37,389 nt of DNA from Blastopirellula marina (GTDB lineage Bacteria > Planctomycetota > Planctomycetia > Pirellulales > Thermoguttaceae), in assembly GCA_020721965.1 (NCBI GenBank), contig DYLS01000007.1:33101-70489 (forward strand), given 5' to 3'. Shown in pieces: positions 7,502-35,895 of this stretch. The translations under genes were made by a program, and so were the position numbers. Below the pieces are notes generated by a model, which worked only from the letters and a program-made list of their open reading frames with translations, was not told the DNA's origin and searched no databases. Positions within the stretch are counted from its first letter, which is position 1. Every line of letters starts with the position of its first letter.

Positions 7502-7754
7502 GTAACCGTTTACAGGGATTCTCCGCACTGCAAAACGACTCGCGCTGCTGTCGTTTCGAGAGAAACGAGAAATCTTTTGAAGCGAGAAATCTTCTCAGCG
7601 GGGGTTAAGATTTCTCCTCGCTGCGCACGTCGAAATGACCATGCGTACCACCCTTAAGGAACCTCTGGGACCTCTGAACAACCGGCGGGAATCTCTGAAT
7701 AACCCGCGTTGTTTAACAAACCTTTTCCGTTATAGCTTAGCCGTGAACGGTTAC
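7502..7754 (+). mobile_element. MITE family 1, copy A (253 bp) with 8-bp target duplication
   Basis: Starts GTAACCGTTTACAGG and ends CCGTGAACGGTTAC, a terminal inverted repeat of about 14 bases. It is flanked on both sides, with no gap, by CTTCGGCA (7494-7501 and 7755-7762), a perfect 8-bp target duplication. The inside is non-coding and shared with copies B, C and D, including GAGAAATCTTTTGAAGCGAG and GTTATAGCTTAGCCGTGAACG. It holds one copy of the 24-bp internal unit. The GTAA terminus plus 8-bp duplication matches what is known of IS66-family elements. Confidence 0.9.
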
Positions 7755-18204: not shown

Positions 18205-18454
18205 GTAACCGTTCACGGCTGAGCTGTAACGGCAAAGATTTGTGAAACAACGCGGGTTGTTGAGGGGTTCCAGAGCTTCCTTGAGTGTCGAACGGAATGT
18301 CATTTTGGACGAGCGCCAGCGATGAGAAATCTTCACCCCTGGCGAGAAGATTCCTCGTTTCGCAAGATTTCTCGCTTTGCTCGAAATGACAGGAGGACAA
18401 GCCGCTTTGCAGTGAGGAGAATCCTTGGGAACGACTACTTCCGTGAACGGTTAT
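18205..18454 (-). mobile_element. MITE family 1, copy B (250 bp)
   Basis: Starts GTAACCGTTCACGGCTGAGC and ends CCGTGAACGGTTAT; only the last base breaks the inverted repeat. It is in opposite orientation to copy A and has one 24-bp internal unit. No target duplication is recognisable, so it is probably an older insertion or its flanks have been rearranged. Confidence 0.85.
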
Positions 18455-18515: not shown

Positions 18516-18723
18516 CCACCAGCTTACGCTGGTGGCTCGAAAGTGCGTGCTGTTTGTATTACCAGCTTACGCTGGTGGCACGTCGGTTTACGCTTTTTGC
18601 GTACCAGCTCACGCAAGTGGGTCGGGCTAATGCGAATCAGCTTCTCGCGGGGATTGCTTGACGCAGGCGAAACGATTCGGGAAAGCGAGTGGGTGCGGAT
18701 GAGCCTCGGGCGTCAGCCCGAGG
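18516..18723. repeat. Cluster of REP-like palindromes
   Basis: CCACCAGC-TTAC-GCTGGTGG at 18516-18535, ACCAGC-TTAC-GCTGGT at 18561-18576, a decayed copy near 18603, and CCTCGGGC-GTCA-GCCCGAGG at 18704-18723. The first palindrome plus the next four bases (CTCG) recurs identically at 33418-33441, and a variant of the last occurs at 33335-33354. Confidence 0.75.
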
Positions 18724-26354: not shown

Positions 26355-26435
26355 TATCCTAACCTCGATCCTAACTCGTTCTATCCTAACCTTGATCTTA
26401 GCTCGTTCTATCCTAACCTCGATCCCAACCTCGCT
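26355..26435. repeat. 27-bp tandem repeat (3 units) at the nikL start
   Basis: Three adjacent 27-base units at 26355-26381, 26382-26408 and 26409-26435, each starting TATCCTAACC. The array begins five bases upstream of the nikL ATG, so it occupies the ribosome-binding and leader region. Confidence 0.85.
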
Positions 26436-26487: not shown

Positions 26488-26525
26488 CATAGGTAGTTTT
26501 TCAACCGGCCATAGGTAGTTTTTCA
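26488..26525. repeat. 16-bp direct repeat at the left end of MITE copy C
   Basis: CATAGGTAGTTTTTCA occurs at 26488-26503 and 26510-26525 with a 22-base period. The second copy overlaps the decayed left terminus of copy C, so the element end appears to have been duplicated. Confidence 0.6.
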
Positions 26526-26827
26526 TAGGGGTCCTCGTCACGGCGAAACGGCTCGCCCTCCTGTCCTCCCCCTCCTGTCATTTCGAGCGCAGCGAGAAAT
26601 CTTTTGAAGCGAGAAGTCTTCTCGGCAGGGGTTAGGATTTCTCCTCGCTGGCCCTCGTGAAAATGACACGGTTGGCCCTCGTCGAAATGACATTCCATTC
26701 CAAACTCCGTAGTTCCAAGTTGCGTCTCTTGCGGACCAAATAACCTCTGAACAATCCTTGGGAACCGCGGAACAACGCTCGTGGTTTCGCCAACCTTTTT
26801 TGTTATAGCTCAGCCGTGAACGGTTAC
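26515..26827 (+). mobile_element. MITE family 1, copy C (about 313 bp) inside the nickel operon
   Basis: The right end CAGCCGTGAACGGTTAC is intact. The left end GTAGTTTTTCATAGG is a decayed version of GTAACCGTTTACAGG. The body matches copies A, B and D (CGAAACGGCTCGCC, GAGAAATCTTTTGAAGCGAG, TTGTTATAGCTCAGCC). It contains two copies of the 24-bp internal unit (26645-26668, 26669-26692). It lies between nikM and nikL. Confidence 0.82.
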
Positions 26828-26874: not shown

Positions 26875-27003
26875 ATCATCACGTTTCAGCGATGATTATG
26901 CTTCAGCAATCATCACGGCCCGGCGATCATCACAGACCGGCGCTCATCACGCTTCAGCGATCATAACAGGCCGGCGATCAACGTGCTCGGGCGATCATCA
27001 CGG
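26875..27003. repeat. 17-bp tandem repeat (7.5 units) after nikM
   Basis: Seven full 17-base units from 26875 to 26993, pattern ATCATCACGGNCCGGCG, plus a partial eighth to 27003. The array ends four bases from the nikM stop codon. The units are imperfect and there are no spacers, so this is not a CRISPR array. Confidence 0.85.
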
Positions 27004-28734: not shown

Positions 28735-29066
28735 GTGCCCGTTCGCGGCTGAGCTGTAACGGAAAAGACTTTGTGAGACCACGAGGGTTGGAGGTTCCAG
28801 AGGTTCCTTGAGCGTGGAACAGAGTGTCATTTCGACGAGCGTCCGCCATGTCGTTCCGACGAACGCCAGGAATGTCATTTCGCCGAGCGCCAACGATGTC
28901 TTTTCGACGAGCGCCCGCGAGGAGAAATCTTAACCCCTGCCGAGAAGACTTCCCGCTTCAAAAGATTTCTCGCTTTGCTCGAAATGACAGGAGGGCGAGG
29001 ACAGGAGGGCGAGCCGTTTTGCAGTGAGGAGAATCCCTGTCAACGACTTCCCCCGTGAACGGTTAC
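28735..29066 (-). mobile_element. MITE family 1, copy D (332 bp) with four 24-bp internal units
   Basis: Left end GTGCCCGTTCGCGGCTGAGC (two changes from copy B), right end CCCCGTGAACGGTTAC. Same orientation as copy B, and much of the body is near-identical to it. The extra length is mostly a tandem array of four 24-base units at 28825-28848, 28849-28872, 28873-28896 and 28897-28920 (core TTTCGACGAGCG). No target duplication was seen. Confidence 0.88.
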
Positions 29067-33334: not shown

Positions 33335-33437
33335 CCTTGGGCATAAGCCCAGGGTGGAAGTACCATCGCAACGCGCTGACCCAATCGCGGCGCAATACGA
33401 ATAACGCCATCGTTTCACCACCAGCTTACGCTGGTGG
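33335..33437. repeat. Two REP-like palindromes
   Basis: CCTTGGGC-ATAA-GCCCAGGG at 33335-33354 and CCACCAGC-TTAC-GCTGGTGG at 33418-33437. Both classes also occur at 18516-18723. The second plus CTCG is identical between the two loci. Confidence 0.75.
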
Positions 33438-33478
33438 CTCGGGTTCTAGGCTCTGTTTGCAAACCCGTTTTTTAGGTT

Positions 33479-35498: not shown

Positions 35499-35895
35499 CC
35501 GTGCCCAAGGCGATGTCGGCGACTGGGCGAGATGCCCAGTCTCAGTCCCCGGAAAGGTCGCCCCGCTAGCCTCGCTGGCAATGCGTCGAAGGGTATCGAC
35601 ATTGCCCCTTGTAACACCCCCACGAACGAGGGGTGGGCTAGTTGCAACGGAACGCAAGACAATGATTTGCGTCAATTGAGCACCCTAATTCGCCCCCCGT
35701 TTCTTGAGTACACCGCAAATCGCACAACTCGTTACAGGATAATAACTTACGAAAACTATTGCATGACTACAGTAAGCGGTGCAAATCAACAGAAAGTCGT
35801 TACGCAGTAATGATTTACGTAAAAATACATTCAGGAACTTTGTCGTAAAGATACGTCCAGGAAGTTTGGCCTAGAGATTCGTGGTTAACCTTGCC
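35499..35895. other. AT-rich intergenic region with a 25-bp direct repeat
   Basis: From about 35690 the sequence becomes clearly AT-rich. Two 25-base copies (CGTAAAGATACGTCCAGGAA and variant) lie at 35818-35842 and 35844-35868, ending 27 bases before the radical SAM start. They may be regulator sites. No clear sigma-54 GG-N10-GC promoter was found. Confidence 0.55.

Follow-up and report, generated by a model that had tools for sequence, protein, structure and literature searches.

A 24-bp tandem repeat in four copies of a short element

Within the window, the whole 37,389-nucleotide stretch of DNA that we analysed, lie four copies (A to D) of a miniature inverted-repeat transposable element (MITE), each containing a 24-bp unit present one to four times next to, and forming part of, a central hairpin. 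The copies and their parts are as follows (window coordinates, strand, description).

7502–7754, minus: MITE copy A, with a perfect 8-bp target duplication, CTTCGGCA
7618–7640, minus: single unit of copy A, 23 nt
18205–18438, plus: MITE copy B
18298–18322, plus: single unit of copy B, 25 nt, one T inserted
26515–26827, minus: MITE copy C
26645–26692, minus: two 24-bp units of copy C
28735–29050, plus: MITE copy D, left end GTGCCCGTTCGCGGCTGAGCTGTAACG, right end GTCAACGACTTC
28825–28848, plus: 24-bp unit 1 of copy D (outermost)
28849–28872, plus: 24-bp unit 2 of copy D
28873–28896, plus: 24-bp unit 3 of copy D
28897–28920, plus: 24-bp unit 4 of copy D, hairpin-adjacent, the outer part of the left hairpin arm
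28921–28931, plus: inner part of the left hairpin arm of copy D, GGAGAAATCTT
28962–28989, plus: right hairpin arm of copy D, AAGATTTCTCGCTTTGCTCGAAATGACA, 94% conserved genome-wide
28986–29013, plus: 14-bp repeat GACAGGAGGGCGAG, twice in copy D, spanning the right hairpin end

A sequence-only reading had placed four 24-bp units in copy D at 28825–28920, which is exact, and had counted 1-1-2-4 units in copies A, B, C and D, a series borne out by the coordinates of each unit. Tandem Repeats Finder returned the copy D array with a period of 24, 3.8 copies and a score of 105. The core given in that reading, TTTCGACGAGCG, needs qualifying for A and C, which each have one mismatch to it, and for B with its inserted T. 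By alignment the copies measure 253 (A), 234 (B), 313 (C) and 316 bp (D). The array had been held to account for most of the length difference between copies; it does so when D is compared with B (72 of about 82 bp) but not when C is (24 of about 79 bp), as further short tandem modules of the element vary in number too. The remaining excess of copy C consists of such modules, with GTTCAGAGGTTCC-type blocks on its left and the 14-bp GACAGGAGGGCGAG on its right. Across the MITE, number-variable modules include GACAGGAGGGCGAG (14 bp; at 28986–29013 in the window and in other copies), AGATTTCTCGCTTCGCA (17 bp) and the GTTCAGAGGTTCC-type blocks. Copy D has no intact target duplication, and an outer right end, CCGTGAACGGTTAC, follows it at 29053–29066.

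The genome is a 4.95-Mb metagenome-assembled genome (MAG) of 380 contigs and 97% completeness, in which the left end of the element has 117 matches and the element itself more than 100 copies. These are 215–520 bp long, within the size usual for MITEs (under about 0.6 kb), and carry no transposase gene. Their ends are of the GTAACCGTTCACGG type, with GTAACCGTTCACGGCTGAGCTRTAACG at the start and GTGAACGACTAC or GTGAACGGTTAC at the finish, and form terminal inverted repeats (GTAACCGTTCAC.. and ..GTGAACG[AG][CT]TAC) accompanied by a target duplication. Among the 89 copies with both ends located, 43 have an 8-bp duplication with at most one mismatch, compared to 0.5 expected from random pairing.

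Published IS66 elements have ends starting GTAAGCG (PMC11946415) and make 8-bp duplications (PMC11946415, PMC3281130). The element shares the duplication length and the initial GTAA, and differs in the fifth base, which is C rather than G (GTAACCG). Ends of the GTAACCGTTCAC kind are also found on IS66 genes of the same order: among transposase loci from the same order and genus, one (L288) is bounded by GTAACCGTTCACACC and has its own 8-bp duplication, CGCCGGCG, a second (L290) is bounded by GTAACCGTTCACGC, and a third, from the same genus as the window's genome (L284), is bounded by GTGGCCGTTCACGGC and GTAGCCGTTCACGGC. Because of the 8-bp duplications and of these ends, which IS66 genes from the order and genus also carry, we classify the host element, as judged from its termini, as an IS66-type MITE. 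An autonomous IS66 partner in the same genome is a usual rather than a defining feature of such MITEs; no IS66 transposase (PF03050) was found in the 97%-complete MAG, although multi-copy insertion sequences may drop out of a fragmented assembly. A search of 39 relatives, three of them from the same genus, did not detect the left end of the MITE, so that within what was sampled its expansion is limited to this lineage. The genome's single Y1 (IS200/IS605-type) transposase gene (L299, G000:C109:8101-8319) shows no sign of bordering these repeats.

The unit, the hairpin and the age of the arrays

The centre of the element is a long imperfect hairpin, TGTCATTTCGACGAGCGCCAGCGA-GGAGAAATCTT followed by a short variable loop and AAGATTTCTCGCTTCGCTCGAAATGACA. 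The outermost 24 nt of its left arm make up the 24-bp unit, which comprises 22 nt of arm and about 2 nt more. Units upstream of the hairpin-adjacent one end in GCAA or GCAG and the hairpin-adjacent unit ends in GCGA, a difference that would fit duplication of the 22 nt of arm together with the two A's that precede it. Extra units to the right of the hairpin are rare in this genome (5/108). Covariation between the arms lends no support to selection for pairing (0 compensatory cells against 0.8 expected).

We retrieved about 120 loci of the element from the genome. The core, GTCATTTCGACGAGCG, has 330 genome matches at up to three mismatches compared to 38 for a reversed-pattern control, so the repeat is not due to chance. 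Units were called at a score cut-off of 18, which about 0.6% of random positions pass. The 115 clean arrays contain one to six units each: 43 have one, 45 two, 16 three, nine four, one five and one six, with the reservations that array boundaries hinge on the alignment cut-off, that array L100 holds an assembly gap and so is of uncertain unit number, and that the counts may be wrong for some arrays. A further locus, L059, has a large insertion in its hairpin loop and another in its left part.

Genome-wide alignment to a single 24-nt consensus confirmed that the units are one repeat family within a mobile element, differing in number between copies, and thereby ruled out independent insertions of unrelated units. 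Among the upstream units, 26/113 are 23 nt and 6/113 are 25 nt long; these lengths, and the position of the elements outside open reading frames (0/24 inside ORFs compared to 68% for a control), rule out a coding repeat of eight codons. A known structured RNA was ruled out by an Rfam search, which gave no match above the gathering score over copy D, and two weak sub-threshold snoRNA matches just past copy C.

That the array is growing where it stands, as the sequence-only reading had it, was not borne out. The mean distance between units is the same within an array as between arrays (7.58 and 7.55 of 24; permutation P = 0.53). Insertions with a perfect 8-bp duplication have a left end closer to the consensus (92% identity, compared to 86% in the rest) and are therefore younger, yet their upstream units are as diverged as those of the remaining insertions (82% and 81% identity to the consensus). 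The arrays therefore predate the insertions and moved with the element. Together, these two tests exclude recent growth in place as the main cause in this genome and show that, when most of the present insertions arose, the arrays already existed and had diverged. Unit variants are also common to different loci, with 27 such pairs compared to 6.5 ± 3.5 in a column-shuffled null, and arrays with a perfect target duplication and three to five counted units are found at L076, L143, L101 and L140.

Array length does not follow the relatedness of the flanking element sequence: a Mantel test gave r = 0.00, and nearest neighbours share the same number of units no more often than by chance, in a comparison of low power, as the same test between left and right flanks gave only a weak signal (r = 0.13, P = 0.06). 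Simple inheritance is therefore incomplete, with many gains or losses of units; of these, we prefer unit loss through recombination between repeats.

On balance we think it probable that this IS66-type MITE acquired duplicates of its hairpin arm in source copies, and that these were inherited by transposition, decayed and were partly lost. In the source copies, the hairpin would have stalled or mis-primed DNA synthesis, and the outer left arm would have been copied again by slippage or template switching. The resulting arrays would then have spread by transposition of the element, and the copied arrays would have decayed while recombination between repeats removed units, giving the 1-1-2-4 pattern seen in the window.

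Minisatellite growth locus by locus, with slippage after each insertion and copy number as a measure of local instability, appears unlikely. Copy number does differ between close copies (four units in L004 and one in L098, at 10% flank divergence), and a nine-unit array of the same core in a Clostridia genome, described below, is clearly recent; in this genome, however, neighbouring units resemble one another no more than units of different loci do, and units are already 18% diverged in fresh insertions.

Conservation also bears on what the units might do. Genome-wide, conservation stands at 94% for both the hairpin-adjacent unit and the right arm, at 85–88% for the left end and the adjacent left segment (88% for the left end itself), and at 81% for the upstream units. 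The hairpin-adjacent unit is better conserved than the upstream ones in a paired test (P = 4e-16); since copies were located through a loose match with this last unit, the comparison leans slightly in its favour, and the right arm played no part in finding them. The sequence-only reading had suggested a protein-binding site, an idea that gains no support here, as units beyond the hairpin-adjacent one are conserved no better than flanking element sequence. To judge by these values, the upstream units look like decaying duplicates. The extra units are probably functionless in themselves; the conserved hairpin may matter.

A related proposal treats the 24-bp units as subterminal binding sites for the transposase or a host protein, with unit number tuning mobility or the regulation of neighbouring genes. 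Conservation within upstream units is indeed higher over the first 17 nt (about 86%) than over the last 7 (about 69%), the repeats are spaced almost uniformly at 23–25 bp, and the elements are strictly intergenic. The contrast between core and tail would, however, also result from duplication of a segment that stopped within the tail, and upstream units are conserved no better than neighbouring, presumably neutral, element sequence. Moreover, 13/22 fresh insertions carry a single unit, showing that extra units are not needed for transposition. We regard such a binding array as improbable.

The same palindrome in other genomes

Three loci (L121, L124 and L150) are symmetric right–right foldback forms of the MITE, in which the right half is inverted on either side of the hairpin. 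These forms point to strand switching at the hairpin. An earlier suggestion that the array could be a recombination site is thus reasonable in part, in that the hairpin, though not demonstrably the array itself, appears to be a site of rearrangement.

In a scan of 84,980 species genomes, from which the window's own may be left out, an exact tandem pair of the core was found in two other places only, a Desulfobacterota MAG (G447; L161, 1851–1890) and a Clostridia MAG (G448; L162, 2746–2785). In both, the extra unit is joined to the same palindrome as in the MITE. No tandem pairs were found in 391 other genomes from the phylum of the window's genome, to judge by its gene content probably Planctomycetota; the tandem pattern was absent from viral contigs, and we found no paper describing the hairpin sequence.

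In the Desulfobacterota genome the palindrome stands alone (about 75 bp) at dozens of sites with variable flanks. An extra half-end, mostly 19–26 nt beyond the palindrome, is present on the left in 13/57 and on the right in 22/57, compared to 0.5% in the null. The mean similarity of the tails of these extra units to the outer flank is 3.2/7, compared to 1.98 ± 0.21 after permutation, and 9/36 have a tail in which 6 or 7 of 7 nt repeat that flank, as expected for tandem duplication across the palindrome junction. They are unlike the inner arm, and many match neither flank nor inner arm. In the Clostridia genome, the same core forms an array of nine units, eight of which have identical tails (L215), clearly a recent expansion.

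These findings suggest that the hairpin itself may provoke duplications at its junctions. Taken together, the foldback forms and the extra units of the Desulfobacterota and Clostridia genomes point to the hairpin as the place where synthesis would slip or switch strands. Given how rare right-hand extra units are in the window's genome, the duplication process there may differ from that in the Desulfobacterota genome.

More tentatively, and as a possibility to which we give somewhat less than even weight, the palindrome (TGTCATTTCGA..GAGAAATCTT / AAGATTTCTC..TCGAAATGACA) may cause the outer ends of its own arms to be duplicated in tandem, at a period of 19–30 bp, wherever it is present. It would seed junction minisatellites separately in three or more phyla (Planctomycetota-like, Desulfobacterota and Clostridia), and MITEs that captured it would spread the arrays.

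Least likely of all, and quite doubtful, is that the hairpin is a mobile palindrome that entered older copies of itself, the ends of which remain as outer half-units: the solitary palindromes with variable flanks, the many tails that match neither flank nor inner arm and the co-occurrence of left and right extra ends in the Desulfobacterota genome (odds ratio 5.4, P = 0.02 at two mismatches) would fit such nesting, but the co-occurrence is not significant at three or four mismatches, 9/36 units there are plain junction duplications, and in the window's genome extra units are nearly all left-sided, and their tails look like the inner arm (CCAGC-), the pattern that duplicating the arm in tandem would leave.

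Related repeats

The sequence-only reading called a repeat array in a mobile element uncommon, which is fair, although a precedent has been described. BrickBuilt of Porphyromonas gingivalis (Klein et al. 2015, PMC4596501) is a MITE containing a 23-nt minisatellite with a copy number that varies between genomic copies. Like BrickBuilt, the present case is a spacerless tandem repeat of 20–25 bp in a MITE, varying between copies; the two also share a near-equal unit length, an intergenic position, the lack of a transposase and a less conserved later half of the unit. BrickBuilt has the unit AGAYCATARTATCCTCTCRTRTG, IS5-family ends, 4-bp duplications, up to 22.8 units and 19 copies per genome, whereas the element described here has IS66-type ends, 8-bp duplications, one to six units, more than 100 copies and a unit taken from a hairpin arm. 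Identity with BrickBuilt itself is ruled out by inspection, as the unit and the IS5-type ends differ. The present case and BrickBuilt are of one kind but belong to different element families, and the unit found here, which bears no relation to that of BrickBuilt, makes up half of the hairpin of its own element.

CGTC-tagged repetitive extragenic palindromes (REPs; Di Nocera et al. 2013, PMC3733652) resemble the hairpin in that the palindrome starts (C/T)GTCATTTC, has an imperfect stem, and is intergenic, high in copy number and present in several phyla. Here, however, the tag is mostly TGTC, both palindrome ends face outward and the palindrome lies inside an IS66-type MITE. Head-to-tail tandems of CGTC REPs have been called negligible (PMC3733652). 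We ruled out a CGTC REP, as TGTC opens the hairpin-adjacent unit of almost every copy, and the arm finishes in CTT rather than in a CCA-like tail.

The element provides a second, larger case of a minisatellite on a bacterial MITE, with more than 100 copies in one genome that allow arrays grown in place to be separated from inherited ones. If the hairpin does link the arrays of different phyla, it would offer a natural system for palindromes giving rise to tandem repeats. To our knowledge, the birth of tandem repeats from palindromes is usually inferred only from reporter plasmids.

The window also contains other repeats. Tandem arrays flank copy C on both sides (26355–26429 and 26889–27003), built of a 27-bp unit, TATCCTAACCTCGATCCTAACTCGTTC, and of 17/34/51-bp units, ATCATCACGGCCCGGCG. 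A second repeat family, CGTAAAAATACGTCCAGGAAGTTTGG and CCCCGCGAACTAGGGG, is found at 35818–35882, at L083 and nested inside the MITE copy at L103. A third dispersed palindrome, ACCAGCTTACGCTGGTGG, occurs in clusters at 18518–18599 and 33420–33458 of the window and at L091.
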